Origin: Thermococcus paralvinellae
GTDB lineage: Archaea; Methanobacteriota_B; Thermococci; Thermococcales; Thermococcaceae
DNA: 64,000 nucleotides
NCBI RefSeq assembly: GCF_000517445.1
Contig: NZ_CP006965.1
Coordinates: 1,836,681-1,900,680, forward strand
Reading direction: 5' to 3'
Both the position numbers and the translations under genes were made by a program. How positions within the stretch are numbered: position 1 is the stretch's first letter; every line of letters starts with the position of its first letter. Under the pieces are notes generated by a model. The model made no database searches and was not told where the DNA came from. It saw only the letters and a program-made list of their open reading frames with translations. Shown in pieces: positions 23,468 through 57,248 of this stretch.

Positions 23468-23518
23468 CAACTTTAATACCTCCAATTTTGTTATCTATAA
23501 TAATGAAAAATGTCAGCT

Positions 23519-24436: not shown

Positions 24437-25497
24437 AATCCAACACTCTCCCTGAGTTTATTAAAAATCCTTGAGCGATGAAGTCTATATCTGACTATGT
24501 CTTCGTTTCCAGTTCCTACTGCAAAGTAGAGGAGAGCCAAGAAGAATGATGCTTCTGCGAGATATGCAACAAATGGTAGATAAGGACTTACACGATAAAG
24601 TTTTGTTAGAGTTCCTTCAGGTAAAATTGGCAGATATGCATAGATGTTAATTTTCTCTCCATAGACTCTTGTATCTTCCGGAACACTTACCCGAACTTTT
24701 ATCTTTTCTTTATTGTTTCCAGGTATCTTAAACGATTTTTCACCTAAAATTTCAACCCTATCCCCTTGGGCCTCAACGAAGTATAAGAATGGGTAAATGG
24801 CATTATTTTCTAATGTCAGCTCTTTTTCAAAAGTTGAGCCTGGCAAATACCATCCTTCTCTCTGACCACTGGCGAGGGTTGAGGAATAGCTGAAAGTTAA
24901 AGTTCCCCATGAGAGCATCATCGAGAGGATTAAAACTGCCACTATTAGGGAGGCAGTTACTGCATAAAGTGTTTTAAATTTCACTCTTATGTACTTCCTT
25001 TTACCCTTCTTTTTTCTCTCCTTTCCACTGGTTGTCAAGAGGATTGCTCCAAGAACTAAAAACACTATTGCAATATACAGGTTTGAGCTTTTTTTAGAGA
25101 GATCTTTTATATAATCTCCTGCTCTTGGTATCTTTAAAGGTTCTCCCCCAATTGTCACAACCTCGCCTATCACTGCATCTTGTGCTATCTTTGGGTTTTT
25201 GTCTTCTTGCTGATCCGTTGCAACATTATTGTCACCTTTTGTTATGTATCCCTCGTAATCTTTTGCATAGACCCTATGAACTGTCCATTCATTATTCATT
25301 TTAAAAACAATAATATCATTGACATCGCCTTTTGAGAATGGATTTATGAAAAACAAATCTCCTTTCTCCAATGTAGGCGTCATGCTATCCGAGTAAGCAT
25401 AGGATATAAGGATTGGTCTATCAAGAACAAATCCAGCTATTGATGTGATCAGGAATAGACCAACAACAAATGTAAAAAGAAGCTCTAGAAATTTCAT
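24433..25497 (-). CDS. signal peptidase I (Sec11/SipW type) with extra extracytoplasmic domain
   Basis: A 354-residue membrane peptidase. Catalytic motifs are of the Ser-His-Asp (Sec11/SipW) kind: YSDSMTPTL (Ser38), VHRVY (His74) and TKGDNN (Asp89). After the catalytic domain and a membrane segment (residues about 127-143), a very basic linker KERKKKGKRKYIRVK precedes another membrane segment, a beta-rich extracytoplasmic domain of about 120 residues and a last membrane segment. Most archaeal signal peptidases stop after the first part, so this enzyme has a dedicated extension. ATG at 25497 has AAGGTG upstream and overlaps the upstream stop by 4 nt. Surrounded by exported small proteins, its likely substrates. 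Confidence 0.88.
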   Translation of the reverse strand: MKFLELLFTFVVGLFLITSIAGFVLDRPILISYAYSDSMTPTLEKGDLFFINPFSKGDVNDIIVFKMNNEWTVHRVYAKDYEGYITKGDNNVATDQQEDKNPKIAQDAVIGEVVTIGGEPLKIPRAGDYIKDLSKKSSNLYIAIVFLVLGAILLTTSGKERKKKGKRKYIRVKFKTLYAVTASLIVAVLILSMMLSWGTLTFSYSSTLASGQREGWYLPGSTFEKELTLENNAIYPFLYFVEAQGDRVEILGEKSFKIPGNNKEKIKVRVSVPEDTRVYGEKINIYAYLPILPEGTLTKLYRVSPYLPFVAYLAEASFFLALLYFAVGTGNEDIVRYRLHRSRIFNKLRESVGL

Positions 25498-25991
25498 CCG
25501 CACGCACCTTCATAAGCTTGTATTTTAAAGCTTCCAGAAACTTCACCAAGGGTATAATTTGTGGTGTTAATATAGATACCAACATTCACTGACTCATATT
25601 CACCCAGTGTAAAGCTAATACTATCCTCGGGTGTCATGTTTGAGTAGTAAAATCTTAAGCCATCCATTTGTGAAGTAATAATTACGCAAATAACTGATGT
25701 TCCTGTTTGGGTTACATTGTTCTCTACTCTCATAACGTCATCAAACTTGTAAATTGCATCTCTCGACAACCCCTCTCCGTATCCGGGGTAAAATGGATTA
25801 TCCTCACTAATATCAATTGTCAAATTTCCTCCATGATAGAGAAAAGCATACGGTGGGAGTGGTGTCTCAATAGTAAATGCACCATTACCATCTTCAAGAG
25901 CATAAGAAATAGGTACTGGTTTGTTAATGCTAATTGAGAAGAACAATACGAAAATTACTGCTACAGATAATATTATCTCCTTATTGATCAC
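25494..25991 (-). CDS. DUF1102/TasA-like exported or anchored small protein (third paralogue)
   Basis: A 165-residue protein with an N-terminal hydrophobic segment (EIILSVAVIFVLFFSISI), then a beta-rich domain homologous in pattern to the two upstream paralogues: PPYAFLYHGGNLTIDISEDNP, FYPGYGEGLSRDAIYKFDDVM and V-N-V. It lacks the NFxxYxxxR start, so it may stay anchored or be cleaved after ISYA. It has two cysteines, CVII near the middle and the C-terminal GACG, as in its paralogues. I chose GTG at 25991 with GAGGCGA at 5 nt spacing; the longer reading to 26033 has no ribosome binding site. Candidate minor or terminal fibre subunit. Confidence 0.72.
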   Translation of the reverse strand: MINKEIILSVAVIFVLFFSISINKPVPISYALEDGNGAFTIETPLPPYAFLYHGGNLTIDISEDNPFYPGYGEGLSRDAIYKFDDVMRVENNVTQTGTSVICVIITSQMDGLRFYYSNMTPEDSISFTLGEYESVNVGIYINTTNYTLGEVSGSFKIQAYEGACG

Positions 25992-26059
25992 TTTTATCGC
26001 CTCACAAATAAAAACTAAAATATCTGAGAGCAAATGCTCTCAATAAACTAGATTCATCA

Positions 26060-26596
26060 TCACGGGCATGCGCCTGCAATTGCATGTATCTGAAGTTGTG
26101 TTTGATAGGTTCCTAGTGCCATGTTTGTGTTGTCGAATATAAACCCAATTGGGACTGGGCTTCCATGGTATACTGTAAATGTTATTGAAGCAGCTGGACC
26201 TGCACTTGGGCTACTATAGTCGCCTGCGAATACTTCAACATCGTACGAACCTGAAACGCTGAGGGTTACACAAATTGGGTAGTCAGTTTGATTGTTTTCC
26301 CAAAGATCGTTGCTAACATTAAACATTTCTTCAAAAACATAGGTTGTGTTCGGGCTGAGTCCAAGTCCACCCCAAGCTGGCCTGTTTGGGTTATATTCGC
26401 TGATATCAATGTACAATTTTCCATTGCTTAAGCGTGCATATGGTTGTACTGGTGTCAAATCAATTAGCTCATTGTCATCTGCAACAATAGCAACTGTGAT
26501 GTCTCTGTCTGCTTCATAATACCTAAAGTTGGCTCCAGCGCCAACCGCCAACATCATCCCTACTAAAAGTAGGGCCAAACCAATAAGTTTATTCAT
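26060..26596 (-). CDS. DUF1102/TasA-like exported protein (second paralogue)
   Basis: A 178-residue exported protein. Signal peptide to GAGA (residue 22), mature start NFRYYEADRDITVAIVADDN, then ELIDLTPVQPYARL and a beta-sandwich-like region: NPNRPAWGGLGLSPNTTYVF, EEMFNVSNDLWENN. A central Cys (YPICVTLS) and a C-terminal Cys (GACP) could form a disulfide. GGAGGT precedes the ATG. The gene is 17 nt after the first paralogue. The fold and context recall TasA/camelysin proteins and the archaeal bundling pilin AbpA, which polymerise by donating an N-terminal strand; that analogy is inference. Confidence 0.8.
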   Translation of the reverse strand: MNKLIGLALLLVGMMLAVGAGANFRYYEADRDITVAIVADDNELIDLTPVQPYARLSNGKLYIDISEYNPNRPAWGGLGLSPNTTYVFEEMFNVSNDLWENNQTDYPICVTLSVSGSYDVEVFAGDYSSPSAGPAASITFTVYHGSPVPIGFIFDNTNMALGTYQTQLQIHAIAGACP

Positions 26597-26613
26597 TTTT
26601 TATACCTCCTTAC

Positions 26614-27204
26614 TCACTGTCCGCACTTGCCAACCAAAGCAGCTGGCTCTGTCCCAAGTCTGTAGGCTTTTATTCCCATAGCAACGTTCCATATGTCTCC
26701 TGGACTATCGCCATCTGCACTCAAGTCAAGACCAATCTTAACTGTATCTCCTGGTGTAACTACGAAACAAACATCCTCATCTGCTGTATCTGATGAACTA
26801 GCTATGGCTCCAGTTGCTACTTCATATACATCTCCCTCATGTCCGTAGAACTCTACGTTAGTGCTGTTTGAGGTTATCCTAACAACTATAGTCATGTTCT
26901 CCCAAAGGTCGTTGCTAACTTCAAAGACTTCATCAAAATTGTATTCACTTGATGGGCTTATTCCGTTTCCATATCCTGGATAGTTTGGGTTATTGACTGA
27001 GAAGTCAATTACTAGAACACCGGTTACGTCGTCTATGTATGCATAGGGTTGTATTGGTGTTAAATCAATTAGCTCATTGTCGTCCGGAACAATATGCCAG
27101 TGGACGCTTCTGCTTGCATTGTAATCACTAAAATTGGCTCCTGCACCAAGCACGAGACCAAAGGCCACTAAAAGGCCGAAAATTCCAAGTGCTAACTTTT
27201 TCAC
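26614..27204 (-). CDS. DUF1102/TasA-like exported protein (first paralogue)
   Basis: A 196-residue exported protein, the first structural gene of the block. Signal peptide to GAGA (residue 23), mature start NFSDYNASRSVHWHIVPDDN, then ELIDLTPIQPYAYI, almost identical to the next paralogue, then NPNYPGYGNGISPSSEYNF and EVFEVSNDLWEN. It carries a longer C-terminal part with a Cys in EDVCFVV and another in GKCGQ. I chose GTG at 27204 because AAGGAGATG gives proper spacing; an ATG at 27213 is inside that site. A TATA-like CCTATATAC lies near 27270-27278 on this strand, giving a leader of roughly 50 nt and its own promoter. Likely the major subunit of a surface filament (inference). Confidence 0.8.
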   Translation of the reverse strand: MKKLALGIFGLLVAFGLVLGAGANFSDYNASRSVHWHIVPDDNELIDLTPIQPYAYIDDVTGVLVIDFSVNNPNYPGYGNGISPSSEYNFDEVFEVSNDLWENMTIVVRITSNSTNVEFYGHEGDVYEVATGAIASSSDTADEDVCFVVTPGDTVKIGLDLSADGDSPGDIWNVAMGIKAYRLGTEPAALVGKCGQ

Positions 27205-27267
27205 TTTTTTCATCTCCTTATTTTTCGGAGCCCCCTTGAATAGGGACTTCAAAGGAAATCTTTGCAA

Positions 27268-27317
27268 CTGATGTATATAGGTAATTAGAAAATTCGAAAG
27301 GGTAATCGGTAATTACC
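27268..27317 (-). promoter_or_regulatory. promoter of the fibre-like operon with three GGTAAT repeats
   Basis: Plus-strand GGTAAT occurs at 27280-27285, 27301-27306 and 27308-27313; the last forms a perfect 10-bp palindrome GGTAATTACC (27308-27317) that overlaps the stop codon of the upstream regulator gene. The cluster sits directly upstream of the minus-strand TATA (near 27270-27278). This is a good candidate operator for one of the two adjacent winged-helix proteins. Confidence 0.5.
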
Positions 27318-27759
27318 TCTCTCCTTTTATGATTTTTCTTTCTTTCATCCTTTGAACTATGGATAAAGCCAAAAAGGCGCTTGAAATCACAAAACCCTCC
27401 CAGCTTTGTGCTATGTAACTCAATATCACTGAGCTAAGAGCAAGTATGGTATAAACAGTGGCCCATCTCACATCATTTTTATTTACAATCTCCATGTAGA
27501 CATCAACGTTTTCAGGAATTCGGATGAGTTTAATGGTTCCATGCTTAAATTCTATTATTCCCTCCCTTTCCATCTTTGGAATGTGAGTTTGTATCAGGCT
27601 TACATAAACGCTTTTTCTGTGTTTCCTGTCAGTATTCCCTTCTTTTTCTGCAATGTATCTAACTAAATCTCTGAGATCAGCTTCTCCATTTGATTTCTGT
27701 AAGAACTCTATGACACACATTCTCCTATCGTTCCCCAAGATCATGGCTGAGGTAGTCAT
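27313..27759 (-). CDS. winged-helix regulator with C-terminal membrane hairpin
   Basis: A 148-residue protein: an N-terminal winged helix of the archaeal DUF7344-like type (RRMCVIEFLQKSNGEADLRDLVRYIA, then RKSVYVSLIQTHIPKMEREGIIEF) followed by two membrane segments (about residues 98-115 and 118-134) and a basic tail. A membrane-tethered transcription factor could sense the state of the cell surface. It overlaps the upstream small winged-helix gene by 4 nt (ATGA) and lies directly before the exported-protein genes, whose promoter overlaps its stop codon. Probably the local regulator. Confidence 0.75.
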   Translation of the reverse strand: MTTSAMILGNDRRMCVIEFLQKSNGEADLRDLVRYIAEKEGNTDRKHRKSVYVSLIQTHIPKMEREGIIEFKHGTIKLIRIPENVDVYMEIVNKNDVRWATVYTILALSSVILSYIAQSWEGFVISSAFLALSIVQRMKERKIIKGER

Positions 27760-44946: not shown

Positions 44947-47199
44947 ATGAGGCATGTAATATCACTGGTATTAATTGTACTCATGATAACTCCTCATGTG
45001 GGAGTTAGTGCGAAGCCGCTGTTAGATGGTTCTGTAGAGTTTTTGGTAAAAACAGAAAACTTAGCAAATACTACTAAAGATATAAGTTTGGCATTGATGG
45101 CTTTAGTAGCTGCTCACGAAAAAGTTGACGATGATTTAACTAATAATATCACAAGGCTTGTTGATTTACTAATTTCACGTCAGAATTATGATGGAGGGTG
45201 GGGATATTTCGCTGGAAGCACTAGCGATGTTGTTGATACCTCCTATGCAGTTATTGCTCTGAATAAGGCTCTTGCTCTTTACAAAAAAGGAACTTCTAAG
45301 TATTTAGAAATCTCGCGCTCTGTGGATAGTGGGGTTGAATTTATTTTAAATGCTTATTCTGGAAAAGGTTGGGGGTATGTTAGAGGCACTGCACCAGAAT
45401 TTTATCCTACTGTTATGGCAGTCTGGGCATTAGGAGAGAGAGGGTTCAAAGCGAATCATCCATATATAAAGAACGCTCTTATTTATCTAGAAAATACCAA
45501 AAGTTATGAGATGGGTGAATATAGAGCATTAGCACTGAAGATTTTAGCTTTTAGAAGTGTTGGGTATCAAGTAAATAGAGAGTTAATTGAGAAAGTGAAA
45601 ATGATACTAAACTCCGAGAATTTAACAGTAAGTGATAGGGCATTTCTAACTTATGTCCTTGTAACATATGAGGGCATAAATTTTGATACTGTAAGAGCCC
45701 TTTTAATTTTAGAATCTATAAAACAGGGAGAGAACATGTTTTATTGGACAGACAAACCTTCAATATTCGCTCCTACACACATATTTGAGGCTTCATCTTA
45801 TGCTACTTTAAGTTATGCTTTGGTAAGTGATAAGCTTAGTGAGGAAATGGAAAACCCATTTAGGACGTCATGCTCTGCATTAAAAGAACTTCAAAATCCC
45901 GATGGGGGCTGGGGATACCGCGATGGATTTCCCTCAAGTGAGAAAGCGACCTATTATGCATTAAAAGCTCTTAAATTATGCTACTTTAGAGATCCAAGCA
46001 TTGAAAGGGGTTTAGAATGGGTAAAATCAAAGTATGAAAAAGACAAACTAATCATGAAAGAGAGTCATGAGATATACTCACCTTACGTTTATACTCTTCT
46101 AACACTCCTTGAATTTAATATACTGAACGAAACTGAAAAAGCAGAAAATATTGAGCTTATAAAGAGTGTTAAGATGGACACTGGAAAGTGGGGCAACTTC
46201 TTGGGACCTCAGCCTTATGATACTGCTCTGGCAATTAAGTCCCTTCTCGCTCTAGGAGTTTCACCAGACGATGCTGACATCCAGAAAGCTAAGGAGTGGC
46301 TACTTTCACTCTCAAAAACTGGATGGGGAACATATGTAGGTAAGGGATTTTACTCCCATATGCTTCCGCCAGAAGTCTCAGTTACCCTTGAAGTCCTTGA
46401 AGCTTTAGCTCCAGTTTCAACAAAAGAGGAGCTTGAATCACATCTTGAATGGCTTATTGAGCAGAGATCTGAAGAAGGAGGTTGGGCTAACATAAAGGAA
46501 CACTATCTGTTTGGAATACTTCAGTATAAAGAAAAACCAACAGTCGAACTCACGATAAGGACTGTGGAACTGTTAGCAAAATTTGGATATGATTATAGAC
46601 AAGAGATTTTAAACTGGCTTATGGGTAAGGAGCATGATAGTTTATGGGGAAACACGATTGTTGATTCAGCTTTAGCCATAATGTTTCTCTCACAATGTAA
46701 GCCCATATCGAGGATTAACCTCTATGATGTGATAAGACTAATTCCAGAGCAGAAATTCTACTTGGTTTACACAGATGACAGGAATTTGACAGCTCAACAA
46801 GTAAAGGCTTCTATTAACAAGCTCTTTGAAACGAATATAACTGTTGAGAAGTTCCAGGAGTTTGAAAACGCAAGTTACATAGTGCTGGCGGACTTTGAAG
46901 ACTTTAACATTGGAGATTACAATCCTTATGTCAAGCTCAAGGTGAAGAACGAAACGATATATATCAATGGCAAGGAATATGAAACTAAAAATACAGTTGT
47001 CCTGATTCCAGGAAAAATCGATACCGGTTATGTACTCTTTGTCTTTTATAATAAAGGTCTTGATGATGTTGTAATCAAGCTCTTTGACTCTGGCTTAGTG
47101 AAATATCTCAAAGGTAATGCGCTGGTTGTAATCTATGAAGACAAAAACCAAAATGGGGTAGTTGATTTGGATGAGTTAACTGTAGAGTTTTTGAGGTGA
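44947..47199 (+). CDS. exported alpha/alpha-toroid (squalene-cyclase/TED-like) protein with terminal EF-hand loop
   Basis: A 750-residue exported protein; signal peptide residues 1-22 (ending VSA). Repeats of the prenyltransferase/squalene oxidase type recur along the chain: DGGWGYF (about 83-89), GKGWGYVRG, NPDGGWGYRDG, TGKWGNF, TGWGTYVG, EEGGWANI, a sign of an alpha/alpha toroid as in terpene cyclases or TED domains. No catalytic DxDD motif is visible, and the protein is exported, so it is probably a binding or adhesive module. The C-terminus ends YEDKNQNGVVDLDELTVEF, an EF-hand-type calcium loop. It is 7 nt before the CetZ-like gene and opens the block. Confidence 0.75.
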   Translation: MRHVISLVLIVLMITPHVGVSAKPLLDGSVEFLVKTENLANTTKDISLALMALVAAHEKVDDDLTNNITRLVDLLISRQNYDGGWGYFAGSTSDVVDTSYAVIALNKALALYKKGTSKYLEISRSVDSGVEFILNAYSGKGWGYVRGTAPEFYPTVMAVWALGERGFKANHPYIKNALIYLENTKSYEMGEYRALALKILAFRSVGYQVNRELIEKVKMILNSENLTVSDRAFLTYVLVTYEGINFDTVRALLILESIKQGENMFYWTDKPSIFAPTHIFEASSYATLSYALVSDKLSEEMENPFRTSCSALKELQNPDGGWGYRDGFPSSEKATYYALKALKLCYFRDPSIERGLEWVKSKYEKDKLIMKESHEIYSPYVYTLLTLLEFNILNETEKAENIELIKSVKMDTGKWGNFLGPQPYDTALAIKSLLALGVSPDDADIQKAKEWLLSLSKTGWGTYVGKGFYSHMLPPEVSVTLEVLEALAPVSTKEELESHLEWLIEQRSEEGGWANIKEHYLFGILQYKEKPTVELTIRTVELLAKFGYDYRQEILNWLMGKEHDSLWGNTIVDSALAIMFLSQCKPISRINLYDVIRLIPEQKFYLVYTDDRNLTAQQVKASINKLFETNITVEKFQEFENASYIVLADFEDFNIGDYNPYVKLKVKNETIYINGKEYETKNTVVLIPGKIDTGYVLFVFYNKGLDDVVIKLFDSGLVKYLKGNALVVIYEDKNQNGVVDLDELTVEFLR

Positions 47200-47206
47200 T
47201 TAAATC

Positions 47207-48301
47207 GTGAGGGCTTTGATAGTAGGGATTGGCCAGTGTGGAACTAAAATAGCAGACTTGTTTGCATTGGTGGATTTTGAGGCATTGGCAATAAACACCT
47301 CTAAAAGTGACTTGGAGTATCTTAGACATATTCCCCGTGAGCGACGAATACTTATTGGAGAAAGTTTAACAGGTGGGAAAGGCGTAAATGCAAATCCAGT
47401 ATTGGGTAGAGAGGCTATGAAGCGAGATTTACCTTTGGTTATGAGAAAGATAAAGCTGATGAGTGGGTATGAAGACGTTGATATATTCTTTCTTACTTTT
47501 GGCTTTGGTGGAGGTACAGGGGCTGGAGGAACACCGGTTTTAGCTGAAGCTCTCAAAGAGGAATATCCAGACTCTCTTGTTGTAGCTATAGGAGCCTTGC
47601 CTTTAAGAGAGGAGGGAATAAGGCCAACTATAAATGCAGCAATAACAATTGATAAGCTCTCAAAGTTCGCTGATTCAATAATTGCAATAGACAACAACAA
47701 GCTGAGAGAGGCTGGAGTTGGCATAACTAGAGCTTATGAAAAGATTAACTACACAATAGTCGAGCGTATTGCTTCTCTATTAGCGTTAATTGACATTCCG
47801 GGTGAGCAAACACTAGATGCTAGCGATTTGAAATTTGTTCTCAAAGCTTTTGGTAGCTTTGCCACTGTAGGTTATGCAAAAGCTGAGGCAGATAAAATTA
47901 AGAGTCTTTCTCGTTTAATACTCAAGTCATTTGAAAATGAGGGACTTTACCTTGATGCAAACATAGAGTCTGCATTGTATGGGTTGGTCGCGATTCATGG
48001 GCCTCCAGAGGTTTTAAAGGCAAATGAAATATTTGAGGCTCTCGATTATCTCATCCAGAAAATTAAAGGAAAGCAAATATTTAGGGGCTTTTATCCTGAC
48101 TCAAGAGAAAGGGAAGTCGAAGTTGTTACTCTTTTAAGTGGAATTTATGAGAGCAAGAGTATAGAGGATATAATATTAACAGCAAAACGGTATGCACAAT
48201 CATTTATGAGAGCAAAAGAAGAAGCAAAACTGAAGAAGAGAGAACTTTTATCTGGTCTGCCCGATTTTGATGACCTATATCCTGGTGAGATACATGAGTG
48301 A
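47207..48301 (+). CDS. tubulin/FtsZ-superfamily GTPase, CetZ-like
   Basis: A cytoskeletal GTPase. The 364-residue protein has the N-terminal nucleotide-binding MRALIVGIGQCGTKIADLF, the tubulin signature FGFGGGTGAGG (near 98-108) and the C-terminal activation domain with LDASDLKFVLKAFGSFATVG. Similar to archaeal CetZ or a noncanonical FtsZ; it is not the standard FtsZ1/FtsZ2 by sequence. GTG start with AGGTGAT upstream. In haloarchaea CetZ proteins control cell shape and motility. It lies between surface-protein genes and overlaps the next by 8 nt, so it may position the surface structure (inference). Confidence 0.85.
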   Translation: MRALIVGIGQCGTKIADLFALVDFEALAINTSKSDLEYLRHIPRERRILIGESLTGGKGVNANPVLGREAMKRDLPLVMRKIKLMSGYEDVDIFFLTFGFGGGTGAGGTPVLAEALKEEYPDSLVVAIGALPLREEGIRPTINAAITIDKLSKFADSIIAIDNNKLREAGVGITRAYEKINYTIVERIASLLALIDIPGEQTLDASDLKFVLKAFGSFATVGYAKAEADKIKSLSRLILKSFENEGLYLDANIESALYGLVAIHGPPEVLKANEIFEALDYLIQKIKGKQIFRGFYPDSREREVEVVTLLSGIYESKSIEDIILTAKRYAQSFMRAKEEAKLKKRELLSGLPDFDDLYPGEIHE

Positions 48302-48926
48302 AATACTAAAAGATTCAGTTGAGATTGCACTTGAGCTTGACGAAAAAGGAGTTTACTCTCATATAGCTCATGAAAGTGCAGAGGATATAATCAGGATAAT
48401 ATCTTCTCTTGACGCTGAAAGGGCTAAAAATAGAGGGGAAATTATATATTATCAAGACGATTGGGACGAGTTGATCAGACAGAGAATACAAAAAGGAAAG
48501 AGGCATACTGCTTTTGATTTCTATAATCCTGCTTTGTTAAATATTTGGGAATCCAAGATAGAATACCTAAAAAAAGTCAAAAATTCTGTAAAAGTAGCAA
48601 TGCTGGGTGTTGTGAGTTTTTTGATGGCAACAGTAATTTTATCTCTATTTTCTGGCAGTCCATGGTTTTTAGTTGGGGTTAGTGTTCTTCCACTGTTGAT
48701 GTTCCTCAGTTCATATAAAAAAGAGAGACTTGACTTTACGTATTACCAACTTACACAGTTCTTTATAGATGAACTTAGAGAGCTTATTATTAGACATCAG
48801 TTGGACAATACAAGATACAAGTTTAAAATATTCACATATGACTATTTTGGAGTCCTAACAAGAAAAATAGGTTCGAATATCTTTGCACTAGTCAAAATTG
48901 AGGATGATACGACTAATGTTGAATAA
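48294..48926 (+). CDS. cytoplasm-facing membrane protein next to CetZ-like gene
   Basis: A 210-residue protein with two adjacent membrane segments (about residues 99-116 and 121-140) and large soluble flanks: an N-terminal helical part (SVEIALELDEKGVYSHIAHE) and a C-terminal part with YYQLTQFFIDELRELIIRHQ. I do not recognise it. ATG at 48294 has GGTGAG upstream and overlaps the CetZ-like stop by 8 nt, so the two proteins are made together. It could tether the GTPase to the membrane. Confidence 0.72.
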   Translation: MSEILKDSVEIALELDEKGVYSHIAHESAEDIIRIISSLDAERAKNRGEIIYYQDDWDELIRQRIQKGKRHTAFDFYNPALLNIWESKIEYLKKVKNSVKVAMLGVVSFLMATVILSLFSGSPWFLVGVSVLPLLMFLSSYKKERLDFTYYQLTQFFIDELRELIIRHQLDNTRYKFKIFTYDYFGVLTRKIGSNIFALVKIEDDTTNVE

Positions 48927-48974
48927 GAATTGTTAAATATTGTTTTAGATTCTAATAATAGTGGAAGTGAAAAT

Positions 48975-49586
48975 ATGGGAAGGGCACAAATATCATTGGA
49001 GTTTGTGCTGATATTTGGTATAATGCTTATCTTACTAGCTTACTCTGTTAACAATGTAACATTCACACAAAATTCTCAGACAGTTGGAACTCTTAAAGTT
49101 CAAGTTAGCTTGGAAGCTAAGAATTTTGCAAATTCGATTTCAGACACCATTTCTCAAGTTTATGCTCAAGGGCCAGGTTCAAAAGCAACAACCTATGTCA
49201 CTTTGAAGTATCTCAATGATGAAAATTACCTGAAAAAATCATTTAATTTGAGTGGAAATCCTGAGATCTTCATAACTTATCTCAATGGAACTTATGTTGG
49301 GATTATTGATACAACTAATAATACCCTTGTGACATCAGGGATTGCAAAAAACACTTTTTGGAGCCAGTCTTTATATAGGACCAACCTTATGGTGAGCACA
49401 GGATTCACACCAAGTGGAACTGCTATTTATGATGGAAGCACAGTTAATGGCCTTTTAATTGTAAATCCAAGTCAGCTTCCTAAAAATCTTGTAATTGTTG
49501 TTGAATGGGTTCCAGGAAATGGAAACACTTGGACACTTGATATAACGACTGGTGAACTTAGAATAAACATAGATCCCGGTGGATGA
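48975..49586 (+). CDS. class III prepilin-like protein 1
   Basis: A 203-residue protein with a canonical archaeal class III prepilin signal: MGRA-QISLEF, i.e. A-Q-x-S-x-E, followed by a hydrophobic helix (VLIFGIMLILLAYSV). The remainder is a beta-rich extracytoplasmic domain with many Asn-X-Thr sites. Likely a type IV pilus subunit, or a pseudopilin of a related machine, cut by an EppA/PibD-type peptidase encoded elsewhere. Its ATG has weak GGAAGTGA upstream; stop overlaps the next gene region. Confidence 0.8.
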   Translation: MGRAQISLEFVLIFGIMLILLAYSVNNVTFTQNSQTVGTLKVQVSLEAKNFANSISDTISQVYAQGPGSKATTYVTLKYLNDENYLKKSFNLSGNPEIFITYLNGTYVGIIDTTNNTLVTSGIAKNTFWSQSLYRTNLMVSTGFTPSGTAIYDGSTVNGLLIVNPSQLPKNLVIVVEWVPGNGNTWTLDITTGELRINIDPGG

Positions 49587-49588
49587 GA

Positions 49589-50020
49589 ATGAAAAAAGGA
49601 CAATTGAGTCTTGACCTTCTATTTGCAGTCTTGTTGGTAATGATAATTATTACAAATATCACATACCTAGCTACCAGTGAGATTGGTCATGCTGAGACCT
49701 TTGATATCCTCACAAAGGTTAAACTTTTCTCTTCTACATTGGTGGATCACACTGCTAAGGTTTATGCAATTGGAGAGGGATATAAAATAAGAGAAGTTGC
49801 TCCAGATTTAAATGGTGGGACAATTAGAGTTGTTTTTAATGGTACGACAAATAGGATAATAGTAAATGTAACAGTTAATGGCAGAAGTTTTTGGATTACA
49901 AGAAATTCTACGGTGCCCTTGTATACTTCCACTGTGAACTTAAGTAGCAATGAAGAATTTTGGATTGTTGCCTATTATGATACAACTGAAGGGATGCTCT
50001 ATGTTAAGGTCGAGAAATAG
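49589..50020 (+). CDS. class III prepilin-like protein 2
   Basis: A 143-residue protein starting MKKG-QLSLDLLFAVLLVMIIIT, where the E of the class III motif is replaced by D. Beta-rich extracytoplasmic domain follows. The ATG at 49589 has CCGGTGG 6 nt upstream; an ATG at 49583 would overlap the previous stop by 4 nt. Its 3' end overlaps the next frame by 20 nt. Confidence 0.72.
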   Translation: MKKGQLSLDLLFAVLLVMIIITNITYLATSEIGHAETFDILTKVKLFSSTLVDHTAKVYAIGEGYKIREVAPDLNGGTIRVVFNGTTNRIIVNVTVNGRSFWITRNSTVPLYTSTVNLSSNEEFWIVAYYDTTEGMLYVKVEK

Positions 50021-50471
50021 AGCTCAAACTGCGCTTGAAATGATGTTCATTGCCGGTATAATTATTGTGGGAATCATGTTAGTTGTCCCTACATATCTGG
50101 AAGAAAGTAGGGATATATCAATTGTCGCATATGTAAGGGCTTCAGCTTCTCGTGCATGTGATTATTTAAATATGGGTGTTCTCTCCAATGATTCGAGGTA
50201 TTCTGTCTTAAATCCAGTTCTTGAAAGATTAAATGGACTCAGTCCGAATCTGAGAGTGCTCAAACTTGAAACTTCACAATTTAACAACACGATAACAATT
50301 ACTGTTGTCTTGACAACTCCCTACTCCACCATAGATAATGAAACTTTAGCTTCTGCCATTGAGAATTTTATTTTACATGACTTGAACACAACAACTAACT
50401 TAGTTCTTTCAAATGGAACTTTAGTTTATGGAGACACTGTAGTAAATATTGTTGTGAGGGTAGAAAAATGA
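50001..50471 (+). CDS. class III prepilin-like protein 3
   Basis: A 156-residue protein with MLRSRNRA-QTALEMMF, an A-Q-x-A-x-E class III signal, and a hydrophobic helix (IAGIIIVGIMLVVP). The domain that follows is beta-rich. ATG at 50001, inside the end of the previous gene, is preceded by AAGGGA; a longer frame from 49950 is unlikely. Overlaps the next gene by 4 nt. Confidence 0.72.
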   Translation: MLRSRNRAQTALEMMFIAGIIIVGIMLVVPTYLEESRDISIVAYVRASASRACDYLNMGVLSNDSRYSVLNPVLERLNGLSPNLRVLKLETSQFNNTITITVVLTTPYSTIDNETLASAIENFILHDLNTTTNLVLSNGTLVYGDTVVNIVVRVEK

Positions 50472-51919
50472 GGAGAGGTCAAATCTTATCCTTAGACGCT
50501 TTACTTTCGCTTGTAATTGTTGTCATGGTTATTGGTGTGGTTATAAATGCAAATGACATGATAAAAGCTGGTATTACAAATTTAGTTGAGTGGTATGATA
50601 AGACTAACATAGCAAATAACATGCTCGATATTCTGACGAAAAGTCCGGGGTATCCAAGAGATTGGGAGAAAAATGTAACAGCGGTCAAGGTTGTTGGACT
50701 AAGGAGTACTGAATATTCTTATGCTCTGGATTATGATAAGCTTATGAAGTTAAATTCATCAATAAATGTTGTCAACGTCAAAAATAGTCTTGTAAACTTG
50801 AGCGGAGGGAGAGACTTTCAGCTGGAGTTTTACCTAACGACAAAGAATGTTAGTGTCAGTGGAAATTTTCCAGAAATAATTAATGTAGTTCTGGAGAGTT
50901 CTTCTGGTTCTGGAGGAGTTAACTTAAAAATAGATGGAGGGAATGACAGAACCTTTAATGTTAAATGGGTCATTCTTAATAAGAAAGGAAGGGTTTATGA
51001 AAATGAGGATATATGTAACCTCGTACGAGGTGTAAACGTGGATTTGGCAGTTGGGGATATTCTGAGCTTAGAAACAAGTGAAACGATCTATGTATCTGCA
51101 ATAAGACAGGGAGGTCAAGCGAGCTATACCCTACCTCCAGGCACTATAGTAACGATTGAGATATTGAATGTTGATATCGGTCAAGGGAGTAATATTGAAG
51201 TAAATTATGGTGGAGGTTCATGCCCCTACGAGTTTAAGATTGTTGGTCAAGGCAATGTCAGAGTTAAATTCCAAGCTGAAATCTTGGAAGATTTATCAAT
51301 CTCGTCACAATTTATATATCCCACTAATTCATCAGAGCCAACTTTTAACTTTGCAATAATTAATGGAACTGTTGTTAATAGTATTGATACTATTATTAAG
51401 TCCAAAAAAGCTTCACCTTGGATTGAATACCAAGAGAGAAGGTTTGTAGTTGCAAAGCTGATTTATAGTAAGACTATACAAATAATGCAAAACCAAAAGA
51501 GAGAGCTCATAGTTGGGAAACTTAAGCAGAATATTCCTAGCTATGCTTATCTTGAGATTGAAGTTCCTCAAGAGGCAGGCAATGTGACATTTGTTATATT
51601 GGATGGTGAGACTCCAAAGGGATTATTGATCAAAAAAGATACACCCGACTCAAACATTACTGCAATTTTGGCTTGGAAAGAGGGAACACAGAACATTATA
51701 AAATTTTATGAGGGAAACATAACTACCGTTAGGATACCTTGGGGAGATATATTTAGTGAGTTTAATCCAGAAGATGGTGCAAAACCTGTGGAATTCTGGC
51801 TTTATGAAAATAACTTTAGTGGAAATGTGATTTTGAGGGATCGAGGCAATATCGGTTTGCTCTTAGAACCGAAGTTTGAACCGATTCTAATAAAGCTCTG
51901 GGTGTGGGATGACAGATGA
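50468..51919 (+). CDS. large prepilin-like surface protein 4
   Basis: A 483-residue protein that starts MRRG-QILSLDALLSL and then a hydrophobic helix, so the class III-type Q is kept but the spacing to the acidic residue changes (Q-I-L-S-L-D). The extracytoplasmic part is beta-rich with Asn-X-Ser/Thr sites and one short Cys pair (EDICNLV, GSCPYEF). Larger than usual pilins, so it may be a tip or branch subunit. ATGA overlaps on both sides. Confidence 0.7.
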   Translation: MRRGQILSLDALLSLVIVVMVIGVVINANDMIKAGITNLVEWYDKTNIANNMLDILTKSPGYPRDWEKNVTAVKVVGLRSTEYSYALDYDKLMKLNSSINVVNVKNSLVNLSGGRDFQLEFYLTTKNVSVSGNFPEIINVVLESSSGSGGVNLKIDGGNDRTFNVKWVILNKKGRVYENEDICNLVRGVNVDLAVGDILSLETSETIYVSAIRQGGQASYTLPPGTIVTIEILNVDIGQGSNIEVNYGGGSCPYEFKIVGQGNVRVKFQAEILEDLSISSQFIYPTNSSEPTFNFAIINGTVVNSIDTIIKSKKASPWIEYQERRFVVAKLIYSKTIQIMQNQKRELIVGKLKQNIPSYAYLEIEVPQEAGNVTFVILDGETPKGLLIKKDTPDSNITAILAWKEGTQNIIKFYEGNITTVRIPWGDIFSEFNPEDGAKPVEFWLYENNFSGNVILRDRGNIGLLLEPKFEPILIKLWVWDDR

Positions 51920-54084
51920 GGAGAGGCTTTGTATTTACCCTTGATGCATTGCTCTCATTGCTCCTAGTTATGATATTTGTGACGAGCATAGTTGCGATAG
52001 AAAGTAATACTCAAGTGTATACCACTTATATGAGAGAACAGAGCAAATACATAGCTGAAGACATTCTAACAACCCTTAGAACTGTATCTCTAAAGGACTT
52101 GGTTCCACCTCAGAAAATTGAAGAATGGCTTGCTGATGGGACATTAAACACTACCCTCGTTTCTCCAGATATGAGTCCTTTGGAAATAGTTGCCACATAT
52201 TGGGCTACTGAACCATTATATCCCTCTGCAGATTTGCGGCATAAAGCTGAAATAATCTTGGGTTATGTTCTAAATAGAACATTAAAGGGGTATAGTTATG
52301 AACTTATGATAAACAACTACACAAGTCCTTACCTGAGAAAAGTTGGGAGTAATTCCTCAAAAGTCCCCAATATCTCACCTGCAACATTAGTTTTAAGCGG
52401 CTATGCCTACAATCAGACGCCAAGAGGATATATGGTGAGAGCCTATTTGACGAAGTTAGGGAGCAAGGAAACGGAATATACCTATATTGGCATGTACTAT
52501 GAGGCACCTGGATGGACAATGACAGATTATTTGACAATTAAACAACCTATTCCTCATGAAGGTGCTTTACCATCGGATGCTAACATAACTGAAGTGCGTT
52601 GGTTGCCTCTTCCAAAATGGGCTAAAGTGGGAAGATATTACACCAAAATGCAGCTATATATAGATGGGGAGGGTGTTACTTGTGGTCAGTTTAGAGCGAA
52701 TCAATGGGTTGATGTGAAAAAATGGGAGGTGCTTATAGATAATGACCCCAACGATCCAAGAACATGCAATATGCTTGAAATAATTTTGAAACATTCAAAT
52801 CTGAAACAGCATGTCTTTGAAATTAGGATTTATAATCCCGCCGGTCTGTATAATCCAACATACTATACAGCCGGTATAGTTAACAACTTCATCTCAATTT
52901 CATATGTAACCTCCTCTTTCACTACATTTAAGTATCAGAAGATATTCTATTTTGACAATGTTACATCTTATCACTTGCCCCTATCCATTGGCAGGGCAAT
53001 ATTTATACCTGGAAACTTAACTTATATGAAAGTCCAATTGGCCTTTAAAAACCTTCCAAGTGATGTAAAACCTGTGCTGTATATCGATGGATACTACATC
53101 GGGATTGGGAAAGAAATTTCGTCGGGAGTATTTGTGTGGGACAATGCTACAATTTCAGCAAAAGCAGAGTATTCTGCACTTTCACAGACTTATCCATATA
53201 TAATAGTTACGGCTGGTGAGTCTATTAGAAATCTGGATCCTCCCTTACAGCTCGATGGTGAGAATTCATATGTTAAAATTGATTACATATTTAATCCAGT
53301 AATATTGACGCCCTACTCGATTGATCTCACAAAGCAGATAACATCCAGTGATATAACGGACTCATCAAATTGCAGATATGACTCAACATATGGAGTCACT
53401 CTGTGTAGGGATCTAACGTGGGGTTACTTTATCCATCAAAAAGTATCCCCTATATGGACGAAATTTCACTTTATAATTCTCCATGATATCAATGATCCAA
53501 ATACTCACATGACAGTAGAGATAAGCAATCCCAATATTACAGCAACTAAAATCTGGGATAACTCGGATAGCATTTCCTTTATAGGAATAAGTTCGCTAAC
53601 TAAAGATGTTAATGGTAATCCAATTGATCCCGTTTTTGCTCCCGGAACTAACTACATACATGCTTATACTGATACCGCGTACGAAATTGCAAAGGAGTTA
53701 TCTTCTGGTGAGTTCACGTATATAATCCAAGCTTATGCTGGCTATGGGGATGTATTTCCGAAACTCCTTAGAAGTGGATGCAATGGATACAATATAACAT
53801 ACTATTGGGGAAATCCTGAAAATCCAAAGGTGGGACATGTTCTCGCAGGGAGTGATCCATATTGCAGTGTTACTGCAGCAGACTTAATAGCTGGGAAAAG
53901 TATATACGCTGTCGATGATGCGATAGTAAGGTTGTTCAATAATCTTGGAGGAGATGGTACGAGTACGAACCCTCTACTGATTGAACTTCCGCCCAATGTT
54001 AATATAGAATTTGCCTCAATGGGAGAGATTCCCGGATTATCTAGACCAATAACAATTACATTGAGAGTATGGAGGGAGCAATAA
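51916..54084 (+). CDS. large prepilin-like surface protein 5
   Basis: A 722-residue protein starting MRRGFVFTLDALLSLLLVMIF: the basic start, acidic residue and hydrophobic helix of the class III type remain, but Gln is lost. The exported part has mixed beta content, several Cys (for example TCGQ, RTCNM, NCRYD, LCRD, GCNG, YCSV), consistent with disulfides, and Asn-X-Thr sites. It ends ITITLRVWREQ. Coupled by ATGA to the previous gene, and by 1 nt to the next. I recognise no enzymatic domain. Confidence 0.7.
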   Translation: MRRGFVFTLDALLSLLLVMIFVTSIVAIESNTQVYTTYMREQSKYIAEDILTTLRTVSLKDLVPPQKIEEWLADGTLNTTLVSPDMSPLEIVATYWATEPLYPSADLRHKAEIILGYVLNRTLKGYSYELMINNYTSPYLRKVGSNSSKVPNISPATLVLSGYAYNQTPRGYMVRAYLTKLGSKETEYTYIGMYYEAPGWTMTDYLTIKQPIPHEGALPSDANITEVRWLPLPKWAKVGRYYTKMQLYIDGEGVTCGQFRANQWVDVKKWEVLIDNDPNDPRTCNMLEIILKHSNLKQHVFEIRIYNPAGLYNPTYYTAGIVNNFISISYVTSSFTTFKYQKIFYFDNVTSYHLPLSIGRAIFIPGNLTYMKVQLAFKNLPSDVKPVLYIDGYYIGIGKEISSGVFVWDNATISAKAEYSALSQTYPYIIVTAGESIRNLDPPLQLDGENSYVKIDYIFNPVILTPYSIDLTKQITSSDITDSSNCRYDSTYGVTLCRDLTWGYFIHQKVSPIWTKFHFIILHDINDPNTHMTVEISNPNITATKIWDNSDSISFIGISSLTKDVNGNPIDPVFAPGTNYIHAYTDTAYEIAKELSSGEFTYIIQAYAGYGDVFPKLLRSGCNGYNITYYWGNPENPKVGHVLAGSDPYCSVTAADLIAGKSIYAVDDAIVRLFNNLGGDGTSTNPLLIELPPNVNIEFASMGEIPGLSRPITITLRVWREQ

Positions 54085-56474
54085 TGAGGAGGGGTTTTTT
54101 CCTGAATTCTGCAGTTTTACTGCTTTTAATTCCACTCCTCCTGCTTCTGGCTACCTATGAGGATGTTTCCTCCCAAGTTATTCAGGCTCAAAGTATAAGA
54201 ACTCAAGCTGAAAGAACGTATAGAGTTGTCTCTTATTTAGAGTTGGATTTTCAAAAAGCTTTAGAGATTTCAGGAAAAAGGGCAATTGTTGCTGTTGTTG
54301 ATTATGTTTCTGTTACTGGTAATTTTATATCTCCCACATACATGGTAAATAATACAATCAAGGATTTAGTTCTTGAAGGAAATTCCACGAGTTTATCAGG
54401 ATATAATTCAAACAGAGTTATGAGAGGGCAGTCACTAAGAGAATGGCTTATGAACATAACTGAGGAGCTTAATAAGCAGGGTTTTGAGGTTTCTCCAACT
54501 ATTGATGATATTCTAAATAGCATAGAGCTTACAGTTGCTCCTTTGGACTCTTTCAGAATAGTCATAAAAGCAAGAATACCAAATATAACTATCAAAGATG
54601 CTTCGGGAAGAATAGTGTATACAGGCTCAATACCGAGCAATGGGGGTTATATATACTCTATAGTCGATTTGCAAAATCTTGAGGATCCTCTGTTCTCAGC
54701 AATGACAGGAGGAAGATATCATAGATCTATCAGAGCCTGTCGGTATTCATTTCCAGAGATTTTAGAAAAGCCAATTAAAGTTTTGGAAGGCAATAGCAGT
54801 AGCACAGCTTCCCATGTAGTAGGAACTCTTTCGCAAACATTAGATACTGAAAAAATATTCTTTGGGGATTACTATCCTGGAGAAGGTGCTAAGGCTTATG
54901 TTTTATTGAATGAACCTGACCAAAATGTTACGGTGCCAATTGTTTTTAATACTACGTTAAATGGGGTAAGAACCTCCCCACTAAGTGTTTTCAATGAAAA
55001 TGATATGGGAGTTTTAGTGTTTGAAAATACGAGCGGAACAAGCGGTGGAACAGGAGCAACTGTGACTTGGTGTTCTCTGCTCGGGTATAGATTAAATCTA
55101 ACCATTCAAAATAATGTTGGCACAAACTTAGTGAACTTCCAAGTTCCAATCTATATTGATAGATTTCATTTGGATCTAATAACGCTAAACACCTTCTTTA
55201 GCACTGCTGATTCAGATAGAGATAATGTTCCAATACTAGAGATATATGATGAAAACTGTAATCCAATAAACTTTTGGGTGGAAAAGTGGGATACCTCTAA
55301 TCAACAAGCGGTTATATGGGTTAATGTTACAATTCCTGCGAACTCTCAGATAACTCTTGGAATTTATTTTGACTCTACGGGAACTGAAACTTTGGGAGAT
55401 CCAGATAAAGTATTTGATTTTTATGATGATTTTAGTGGTACCACATTGAATACTTCAAAATGGGAGCAATACAATGCACAAGTCTCAATTATTAACGGGG
55501 TGCTGAAAATTACAAATGCTTATGCTGGAATATATACAAAGAAGACTTTTAGTCCGCCGGTTATAATTGAGTTTAGGCAGAATATAAAAAACAGATGGGC
55601 CGAGTTATATATTGCTGTCAGACAAAACAATTACCCCTACGCTTGGGGTCCGTTGTGGTGGGTAAGAGCGAATTGGATACAGCCTGCGAGCTGGGCATAT
55701 TTAGACGATCATGATTGGGGGCTCTATTCTAATGTTATTGTAAACTTGCCAACAGGATGGCATGAGGGGACAATATACTGGTTTAGATATAACTCGGTAT
55801 TGGAATGGGATACTGGGGCAATAGCTTACAATCCATTTAACTTTTATCAAGACTACAATGGAGCAATTGCATTAGGAACATGGGATCGAAATCAAGAGTG
55901 GGATTGGATTAGAGTTCGCAAATATGCATCAACTCCTCCAACTGTCACAGTATCCCGGACTATAGAAACAAAACCTTCATCCACAGTGACGACTACAGCA
56001 ACAGTGACAAGTGCGAGAGCTTACGACATCCAACCGTTTATAAACTGCATTATGGATCAACGTTACTTTGGTATTTATAATGCTCCCTCTTTCTTTGAGC
56101 GCTTAGAGGGTAGTACTATAAACCATGATGAGTATGAGACACTAGCTCATCAAATTCAGGATGAATTAGGAATTAAATATGGAGATCAGTATTATCCGAT
56201 TGGATTAGTAAGCTTTATGATACCTCACGCAACTTATGATGAAAAGCTCTTTAACTTGTTCAATACATTGGGCATAGCTTTAGAAGAAGATCAAACAAGC
56301 TTTGACTATTATTTCCTCCAATACTATTTTGGGGGAGGATCTAAAGTTGTAGGGTATAGAGTTTATGGAATTTCAGACAGTCCAGATAGGAGTAGCGTTT
56401 ATTTCTTCTTAGATAATCAGACAGCTGTGGCTATATTTGGAGCGCAAGGGGCTCAGGATTTACTTCAGAGGTGA
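54084..56474 (+). CDS. large surface protein 6 with DUF2341/lectin-like region
   Basis: A 796-residue protein with MRRGFFLNSAVLLLLIPLLL at the start, the last and most eroded of the prepilin-like series. The first half is beta-rich. From about residue 325 there is a DUF2341-type segment (LNLTIQNNVGTNLVNFQVPIY, IWVNVTIPANSQITLGIYF) followed by a concanavalin-A-like region (FDFYDDFSGTTLNTSKW, WDRNQEWDWIRVRKY), then a Ser/Thr-rich linker near 630-650 and a C-terminal domain. These domains commonly bind carbohydrate at cell surfaces, so this is a candidate tip adhesin. ATG at 54084 overlaps the previous stop by 1 nt. Confidence 0.72.
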   Translation: MRRGFFLNSAVLLLLIPLLLLLATYEDVSSQVIQAQSIRTQAERTYRVVSYLELDFQKALEISGKRAIVAVVDYVSVTGNFISPTYMVNNTIKDLVLEGNSTSLSGYNSNRVMRGQSLREWLMNITEELNKQGFEVSPTIDDILNSIELTVAPLDSFRIVIKARIPNITIKDASGRIVYTGSIPSNGGYIYSIVDLQNLEDPLFSAMTGGRYHRSIRACRYSFPEILEKPIKVLEGNSSSTASHVVGTLSQTLDTEKIFFGDYYPGEGAKAYVLLNEPDQNVTVPIVFNTTLNGVRTSPLSVFNENDMGVLVFENTSGTSGGTGATVTWCSLLGYRLNLTIQNNVGTNLVNFQVPIYIDRFHLDLITLNTFFSTADSDRDNVPILEIYDENCNPINFWVEKWDTSNQQAVIWVNVTIPANSQITLGIYFDSTGTETLGDPDKVFDFYDDFSGTTLNTSKWEQYNAQVSIINGVLKITNAYAGIYTKKTFSPPVIIEFRQNIKNRWAELYIAVRQNNYPYAWGPLWWVRANWIQPASWAYLDDHDWGLYSNVIVNLPTGWHEGTIYWFRYNSVLEWDTGAIAYNPFNFYQDYNGAIALGTWDRNQEWDWIRVRKYASTPPTVTVSRTIETKPSSTVTTTATVTSARAYDIQPFINCIMDQRYFGIYNAPSFFERLEGSTINHDEYETLAHQIQDELGIKYGDQYYPIGLVSFMIPHATYDEKLFNLFNTLGIALEEDQTSFDYYFLQYYFGGGSKVVGYRVYGISDSPDRSSVYFFLDNQTAVAIFGAQGAQDLLQR

Positions 56475-56480
56475 AATAAA

Positions 56481-57248
56481 ATGAACGTTGAAGACGTATT
56501 CTACAGGATAGGTGGATTTGTAGAATCGGCATGGAAGAAGATAAAGGATTTTATAAATCCAAAATCTCAGGATAGTCCTCCTACTTTTGAATTTCTAAGA
56601 AAAATTGTAAAAAGAAAAGTTACAGTTCATGAATTATTAGTTCTAAAGCTTCAGTTAGCTTTTATCTCCTATTTGCTTCTATCCTTACTCCTCGTAGTTT
56701 TCTTGCCAAACGAGTTATATTTGGTTGCCTTAACGGCTGTGTATTTCATATATTTGAGAACAATATTCCGCAAGTATAGAGAATTCTTCATCGAGTATAG
56801 GCCGTATCAAATGTTCTATTACTCAATCAGCGTCATAGGCTTTCTAGCATTTTTTGGATACTCACTTTTGAAAAGATTTTCTTTAGGCATTCATTATTCG
56901 TTGGGTTATCTTGTTTTTGTTTCTGTTGTGGTTATCATGTTTAGGTTTTATTTCAAGTCCAAATACGGCAGAAACTGGACTTACGGTGTCATAGAGGAGA
57001 TTAAAGAAAATGTTGTGAAAATTAGTGTACACGATGACATAAGAGCGAACGTTAGGCCTGGTGAATACTGGGTTGATAAGGTTCCAGATGTGAAAATCGG
57101 AAGAGTAGTGAAAGTTTTAGTTGAGGAAAGAGCATTTAGAGGAGCTGTACCGACGAAAATAATTGAGGTTTACCTAAGTGACCAGCCTTCATCATCAAAG
57201 GCCTCAACGGAAGCAAAAAAAGAGAACGAAACTAACAGTAGCTTATAA
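56481..57248 (+). CDS. multi-TM membrane protein (possibly DUF2101)
   Basis: A 255-residue protein with four membrane segments between about residues 57 and 160 (LQLAFISYLLLSLLLVVFLP; LYLVALTAVYFIYL; MFYYSISVIGFLAFFGYSLL; YLVFVSVVVIMFRFYF) and a soluble C-terminal domain (VIEEIKENVVKISVHDDIRA) with a low-complexity end. Resembles, from memory, the DUF2101 family of Thermococcales. It lies 6 nt after the last surface-protein gene and is the final member of the block. Its 3' end overlaps a minus-strand gene by 79 nt. Confidence 0.68.
   Translation: MNVEDVFYRIGGFVESAWKKIKDFINPKSQDSPPTFEFLRKIVKRKVTVHELLVLKLQLAFISYLLLSLLLVVFLPNELYLVALTAVYFIYLRTIFRKYREFFIEYRPYQMFYYSISVIGFLAFFGYSLLKRFSLGIHYSLGYLVFVSVVVIMFRFYFKSKYGRNWTYGVIEEIKENVVKISVHDDIRANVRPGEYWVDKVPDVKIGRVVKVLVEERAFRGAVPTKIIEVYLSDQPSSSKASTEAKKENETNSSL

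Follow-up and report, generated by a model that had tools for sequence, protein, structure and literature searches.

A linkage in Thermococci of the genes for CetZ, a tubulin-superfamily GTPase, and for a squalene-cyclase-like toroid protein to the pilin genes considered here is already in print, being described in a passage of Makarova 2016 (PMC4858521) that cites Szabo 2007. In the sections of Brown and Duggin 2023 (PMC9856176) that deal with these genes, all Thermococcales cetZ regions analysed are pilin-associated with a conserved order, and the authors suggest that CetZ serves as a scaffold on which type IV pili assemble; the same sections report a single CetZ in Thermococcales, with conserved nucleotide and cofactor genes nearby too. 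Minor pilins are placed near the base of the pilus in the corresponding passage of PMC4858521, and part of PMC10191384 describes assembly of bacterial type 4 filaments as started by a tip complex capped by a subunit without Glu5. No experiment on these genes was found in the literature searched. What is added here is the family-wide gene order, the distant motor, the reading of graded pilins as a tip and adhesin cassette, a proposed membrane tether for CetZ and the allele swaps of the large pilins; with respect to the relevant sections of PMC9856176 the tether, the grading, the motor distance and the swaps are features of the present analysis.

The locus lies in a 64,000-nucleotide stretch of the Thermococcus paralvinellae genome (the window), where the ORF table and Pfam searches delineate ten ORFs, all on the plus strand, spanning 44947-57248 and here called g1 to g10. 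With preferred starts for g3 (48294), g4 (48975), g5 (49589), g6 (50001) and g9 (54084), the successive intergenic gaps from g1 to g10 are 7, -8, 48, 2, -20, -4, -4, -1 and 6 nt, so that the ten-gene plus-strand block of the preliminary description is present, with gaps of -20 to +48 nt. Its six prepilin-like proteins were also recovered, but their supposed steady rise in size from 143 to 796 residues is interrupted by a drop from the first to the second (203, 143, 156, 483, 722 and 796 residues). There was no Rfam match between 43000 and 59500, and for g3, g5, g7 and g8 no Pfam family scored above the cut-off. The order g2-g9 is the same in all 33 evaluable Thermococcaceae loci, the window included (32 from the ORF table, with g5 of the remaining locus, L036, removed by the overlap filter and recovered with tblastn; the contig-end loci L034, L069 and L070 were excluded from this count). 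The arrangement is thus far from chance, and the linkage of CetZ to pilin-like surface proteins, which had been drawn from the window's sequence, is borne out by its constancy in related genomes. The full ten-gene set is found in 31 of the 33 loci, L053 lacking g1 and L048 having no g10 at this position; L047 carries a split g10, and the toroid gene is lost at the site in one genome (G024). A g8 search left nine Thermococcaceae genomes without this gene, and cetZ is present in seven of 11 genomes checked (eight of these nine, G035 being the one omitted, and three others). During this survey cetZ was seen close to a contig end in G088 and G117.

The second gene, g2 (47207..48301, +; 364 aa), encodes CetZ, a member of a polymer-forming family, with the Pfam Tubulin (2.3e-30) and CetZ_C (5.2e-15) domains both above cut-off. 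Its best PDB profile matches are 4b46, 4b45 and 3zid, which we take to be CetZ structures, and the motifs GGGTG[AS]GG and TLDxSDLKFVL, the latter presumably the T7 loop with its catalytic acids, occur in 36 of 36 CetZ sequences. Identity within the family is 82-93%, with a mean of 87%. The adjacent g3 (48294..48926, +; 210 aa) encodes a membrane protein in which a conserved N-terminal domain (about 84 residues) is followed by a hydrophobic hairpin and by a tail at the C-terminus; a simple hydrophobicity scale gives one strong peak, and reading of the sequence together with the model gives two helices. Mean identities of these segments are 82, 31 and 49%, respectively, the N-terminal domain being the only part of g3 about as conserved as CetZ, and a scan of 84,980 species found homologues in Thermococci only. 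From this pattern of conservation we propose that the N-terminal domain may tether CetZ. A fold claim for g3 was dropped: the AlphaFold model has a mean pLDDT of 79, neither Foldseek (best E 0.48) nor VIA (top match a designed bundle, Z 7.6) found a significant fold match, and the matches listed are common helical arrangements.

The block opens with g1 (44947..47199, +; 750 aa), an exported alpha/alpha-toroid protein with a signal peptide and a single hydrophobic segment (residues 4-22), no further TM helix being predicted. SQHop_cyclase_C (7.6e-17) and SQHop_cyclase_N score above the cut-off and its PDB profile matches are squalene-hopene cyclases, with which it shares the alpha/alpha-toroid and three QW-like repeats (at 79, 316 and 506). 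However, g1 falls below the NCBIfam cyclase cut-offs, and that of the window lacks DxDD, the catalytic acid motif of squalene/hopene cyclases; this pattern occurs in three of 34 orthologues (twice at the extreme C-terminus and once at residue 518), and CGEQ in 0 of 34. The last gene, g10 (56481..57248, +; 255 aa), encodes a DUF2101 membrane protein (1.8e-69) with four hydrophobic segments, predicted as TM helices, and a conserved C-terminal domain, and its family was confined to Thermococcaceae among the genomes searched.

Between these lie the prepilin-like genes, whose predicted mature N-termini are graded from g4 to g9 as Glu5, Asp5, Glu5, Asp6, Asp6 and none. The product of g4 (48975..49586, +; 203 aa), with the site [GA]|QISLEF, matches the Pfam Class_IIIsignal family (1.9e-6), and that of g6 (50001..50471, +; 156 aa) matches it below the cut-off (0.023); Glu stands at +5 in 35 of 35 members of each family, while g5 (49589..50020, +; 143 aa) has Asp at +5 in 34 of 34. 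Two large proteins follow, g7 (50468..51919, +; 483 aa), with Gln at +1, and g8 (51916..54084, +; 722 aa), with an aromatic residue there, and both have Asp at +6 (35/35 and 33/33, respectively). The largest, g9 (54084..56474, +; 796 aa), contains a DUF2341 domain (4.2e-23) and shows an F/Y-x-x-N motif, with Asn at +4 and no acid across the eight tabulated residues, in 33 of 33 sequences. As PF04021 misses most of these pilins, g5, g7, g8 and g9 were classed as pilins by reading their N-termini.

The exteriors of g7-g9 are only 30-35% identical within the family. Between the window and L033 both g7 and g8 are 86% identical, as against 40% and 53% between the window and L031, even though the CetZ proteins of L031 and L033 are 97% identical; the exteriors diverge fast and swap alleles, as adhesins do. 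The g8 model (pLDDT 77.7) has an N-terminal helix followed by beta-sandwiches resembling carbohydrate-binding modules. Whole-chain TM-scores are low, and per-domain ranges alone were used: residues 183-339 and 467-605 match BcsB (VIA Z 9.5, rmsd 3.0, 121 aligned, and Z 8.7, rmsd 2.5, 108 aligned, respectively) and 341-458 a CBM (Z 7.1, rmsd 3.2, 104 aligned), where a Z below about 8 may reflect a mere common arrangement. Against the PDB the g9 profile gave no match, and that of g4 only an entry at chance level.

The absence of a pilus ATPase or platform gene from the block, already remarked in the preliminary description, extends to the Thermococcaceae cetZ loci as a whole, in none of which a search hit an ATPase or a TadC/PilC homologue. 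The suggestion that an assembly machine might lie elsewhere likewise proved sound: the genome has one PF00437 ATPase above the cut-off, an ORF with an intein-like insert, and one adjacent TadC pair (L075:9767-15148), 107 kb from cetZ, and across 22 genomes the ATPase-cetZ distance is 31-971 kb. Also away from the block are three tandem short genes for major-pilin-like proteins with Glu5 and a prepilin peptidase gene. Archaellin searches gave no match in this genome or in G028, likewise complete, although each retains the block. With the sole clear T4P ATPase and TadC pair at this distance and no archaellin match, the block goes with a type IV pilus.

The g7-g9 end of the series recurs in distant archaea, at 26 loci that remain of 32 after six without a g8-like ORF (L171, L174, L178, L182, L187 and L192) were dropped before counting; one of the 26, L162 (G329), is not an independent case, as its contig resembles one of Thermococcus. 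An acid at +6 only is seen in 24 of 24 distant g8-like ORFs with a called site, a count partly biased because the g8 profile includes the N-terminus, the match ranges at many of these loci beginning well past it and those at others not. Likewise, the first 16 mature residues are acid-free in the 17 g9-like ORFs with a called site, and the 18th is acid-free by eye (the cleavage-site rule called none in L169 and L184 for g8, and in L176 for g9). A T4P ATPase lies near seven of the 26 loci and TadC genes also adjoin these relatives, which shows that the pilins are those of a type IV pilus. The preliminary description had allowed that the link to CetZ would be chance if such pilins regularly stood beside a pilus ATPase and a TadC/PilC homologue; this does occur in part of the distant loci, but the link is constant within Thermococcaceae and is not thereby made fortuitous. 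The only CetZ-profile match among the 32 distant loci, in L165, was discounted on its N-terminus, which we take to be FtsZ-like, and a CetZ relative in G058 (L065), kilobases from two TadC-like ORFs and with an opposite-strand gene between, was set aside as too weak. With no clear CetZ neighbour of the cassette in other archaea, CetZ is not needed for such pili in general.

Taken together, the block most probably encodes a surface filament's tip, made in concert with an intracellular tubulin-like protein. More specifically, we lean, with somewhat more belief than doubt, towards a type IV pilus cassette of minor (tip) pilins and adhesins, joined to a cytoskeletal partner; an acid-less subunit caps the assembly-starting tip complex in bacteria, hence this reading of g4-g9, in which we propose g9 as tip cap and adhesin. 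The distant ATPase and TadC proteins would assemble g4-g9 first, with g9 and its DUF2341 domain at the very tip, g9 being the subunit that lacks the acid believed to attach each pilin to its upper neighbour. Next below would come g8 and g7 with their adhesin-like exteriors and then g4-g6, beneath which the short Glu5 major pilins would polymerise. With less certainty, CetZ might polymerise in the cytoplasm, held at the membrane by the g3 N-terminal domain, and there mark or brace the assembly site, while the toroid might act on the cell exterior, in the S-layer or where the pilus is rooted, and g10 within the membrane. CetZ might in this way place the pilus, as the preliminary description supposed of the cytoskeleton and the surface structure.

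A competing view, which we consider unlikely though deserving of weight, is that CetZ serves cell shape or the envelope in a general way, is merely co-expressed with the pilus genes and makes no contact with the pilus machine. The single CetZ and the neighbouring nucleotide and cofactor genes reported in PMC9856176 would fit such a role, as would the cassettes outside Thermococcaceae that have no clear CetZ. Nevertheless, cetZ follows g1 after 7 nt, overlaps g3 by 8 nt and adjoins g3 in all 33 evaluable loci, whereas a gene for shape in general would be expected to wander.

A short pseudopilus, or a surface complex that is not filamentous, made of the pilin-like proteins and exporting or anchoring the toroid as in the type II secretion system, is rather improbable: the operon is led by an exported protein and the large pilins have big exteriors, but the genome encodes a peptidase and, in tandem, three short Glu5 pilins with which to build a long fibre, and the ordinary signal peptide of the toroid would have it exported anyway. 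CetZ, as a polymer former, might instead serve the archaellum with its block, for example as part of the polar cap seen in Pyrococcus furiosus, a prospect we rate as very slight. This cap is a cytoplasmic sheet in a related genus, of unknown protein composition according to a passage of PMC5517150. Against such a partnership, the block is intact in this genome and in G028, two complete genomes without an archaellin match, and PMC5517150 never saw the cap without archaella; the archaellum reading was therefore set aside in favour of the pilus tip and its cytoskeletal partner.

The way in which the filament genes are ordered hints at how filament assembly starts. As a tentative and rather doubtful extension, the graded cassette could be an ancient complex that initiates the tip of archaeal pili and corresponds to the bacterial HIJK complex, with its order coded from shaft to tip; in Thermococcaceae, g3 would couple it to a tubulin-family polymer devoted to fixing the pilus site. 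If true, tubulin-family proteins would be joined to pilus placement and archaeal pili would gain a defined initiation complex. Genetic tools exist for Thermococcus, and the block offers a small, self-contained setting in which to study what CetZ does outside haloarchaea.

The set shares with GspH-I-J-K and PilH-I-J-K of the bacterial T2SS and T4aP, as described in parts of PMC10191384 and PMC4471445, a small group of pilins with a large Glu5-less subunit, read as tip starter, the cap without Glu5 corresponding to g9 (33/33); it differs in the +6 acid of g7 and g8, in having six subunits and in their very large exteriors. No sequence relation to GspH-K emerged, the g4 and g9 profiles having no such PDB match. 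The fold matches of g8 are beta-sandwich proteins. By gene content, the system resembles the type IV pili that the relevant passage of PMC4858521 assigns to clade 1, in Thermococci and class I methanogens, and to which it gives two TadC, DUF2341 adhesins, at least five minor pilins and a peptidase; here too we find a T4P ATPase with two TadC, DUF2341 in g9, six prepilin-like N-termini and the peptidase. The acid series goes undiscussed in the main text of that paper, from which 'glutamate' and 'GspK' are absent, and the grading, which predicts a starter subunit and a tip occupant, departs from its 2016 archaeal pilus model, where minor pilins stand near the base and not, as we read g4-g9, at the tip. 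Finally, the haloarchaeal cetZ2 described in part of PMC9856176 together with pilB2/pilC2 regulons likewise combines a gene for CetZ with neighbours from a type IV pilus system, but that cluster holds ATPase and platform genes, which the Thermococcus block is without.

The block at 44947-57248 of the window comprises ten ORFs on the plus strand (g1-g10) with an intergenic spacing of only -20 to +48 nt, which upholds the close packing claimed in the preliminary description and makes it likely that they form a single predicted transcription unit; the ORF-free stretch directly before g1 measures 96 nt. Pfam searches assigned a squalene-cyclase-like toroid to the exported protein g1, Tubulin and CetZ_C domains to g2, a class III signal to g4, DUF2341 to g9 and DUF2101 to the membrane protein g10. 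The six pilin-like proteins g4-g9 have 203, 143, 156, 483, 722 and 796 residues, so that the rising size ascribed to them earlier fails at the first step. Elsewhere in the window, a 560-residue ORF (16381-18063) is without any Pfam match at 1e-5, and a run of minus-strand ORFs (22448-27759) includes one DUF5305 and one DUF7344 match.

A close CetZ (82-93% identity) is found in 36 of 37 Thermococcaceae genomes, including the complete 1.96 Mb genome bearing the window; the sole genome without one, G001, has a completeness of 75%. Conservation of gene order in relatives was borne out: g2-g9 are unchanged in all 33 evaluable loci and the full set of ten in 31, the window being counted in both. Matches to the membrane protein g3 are confined to Thermococci (two peptide patterns scanned over 84,980 species), and DUF2101 is confined to Thermococcaceae (115 genomes of the phylum searched, 87 matched), with no match in 14 control genomes. 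Seven CetZ matches occur in genome G058, three of them clustered on one contig (C37, locus L050). A Thermococcus-type g7-g8-g9-g10 set, with an extra 594-residue ORF separating g8 from g9, lies on a contig binned to a non-Thermococcaceae genome (L162, G329:C71:1-6617), by either binning contamination or transfer. Since the N-terminal 84 residues of g3 are nearly as conserved (mean family identity 82%) as CetZ (87%), unlike its hairpin (31%), we propose that g3 is a putative membrane tether of CetZ; its model gave no clear match to known folds.

The absence of a pilus ATPase or platform gene, noted earlier for the block, extends to every Thermococcaceae cetZ locus, none of which has a motor match. 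The window's genome has a single type IV pilus ATPase above the family cut-off, adjoined by its single pair of TadC platform genes, 107 kb from cetZ; over 22 genomes the ATPase and cetZ lie 31-971 kb apart, with a median of 173 kb. This ATPase ORF (L075:9767-13144, outside the window) contains about 530 inserted residues, with LAGLIDADG-like motifs, that on visual inspection look like an intein; ORFs of like length occur in many relatives, and that of G003 has 631 residues. Single open frames of about 1,100 residues in G009 (C29:1947-4304) and G058 (C81:36974-39313) each gave two secretion-ATPase domain matches and are apparently fused double ATPases. Because no archaellin was found in the window's genome or in G028, both complete, the block does not depend on the archaellum. 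Other pilus genes of the window's genome are three short tandem pilins, each with Glu5, at about 837 kb, and, at about 1203 kb, a prepilin peptidase accompanied by a pilin of 58 residues.

Mean family identity is 30-35% over the outer portions of g7-g9, versus 53-62% over their N-terminal portions. Against the congeneric cetZ locus L033, g7 and g8 of the window are both 86% identical, against L031 only 40% and 53%, and g1-g6 and g10 retain 76-93% identity with both loci. This fits adhesins under outside selection whose alleles may be exchanged. The predicted model of g8 has beta-sandwiches resembling carbohydrate-binding modules.

A g8 profile search recovered relatives in 151 of 396 genomes. 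Among 32 loci examined from outside Thermococcaceae, 26 contain a g8-like ORF, all 24 with a called cleavage site having an acid solely at +6 of the mature protein. In 18 loci a g9-like ORF follows downstream within two co-oriented ORFs; no acid occurs among the first 16 residues of the 17 for which a cleavage site was called, nor, judged by eye, among those of the eighteenth. Locus L185 (398-10727) has tandem duplicate g8-g9 pairs (1261+623 and 906+660 residues). As a type IV pilus ATPase is present at 7 of the 26 loci, and in five (L170, L172, L173, L177, L188) the ATPase gene and two TadC genes lie downstream in the same orientation, pilins of the g7-g9 type probably belong to type IV pili. 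CetZ, g3 and DUF2101 may then be read as additions by Thermococcaceae to a pilin cassette.

The CetZ-pilin gene link is real, strongly conserved and already known from Makarova 2016, which cites Szabo 2007, and from Brown and Duggin 2023 (PMC9856176), in which every Thermococcales cetZ region analysed is pilin-associated and a scaffolding role is suggested. For the acid grading of the pilins, a limited check of parts of the literature found no statement, and the words 'glutamate' and 'GspK' are both absent from the main text of Makarova 2016 (PMC4858521). Numbered from the mature N-terminus, Thermococcaceae have Glu5 in g4 (35/35), Asp5 in g5 (34/34), Glu5 in g6 (35/35), Asp6 in g7 (35/35) and g8 (33/33), and no such acid in g9 (33/33). 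The most likely reading of the block is a tip cassette for a pilus, joined to a cytoskeletal partner; the tip assignment and the tethering of CetZ by g3 are both proposals. One review cautions that Glu5 is frequently missing in archaea (PMC4471445); in the bacterial type 4 filaments reviewed in PMC10191384, a tip complex of minor pilins, capped by a subunit without Glu5, is the starting point of assembly.
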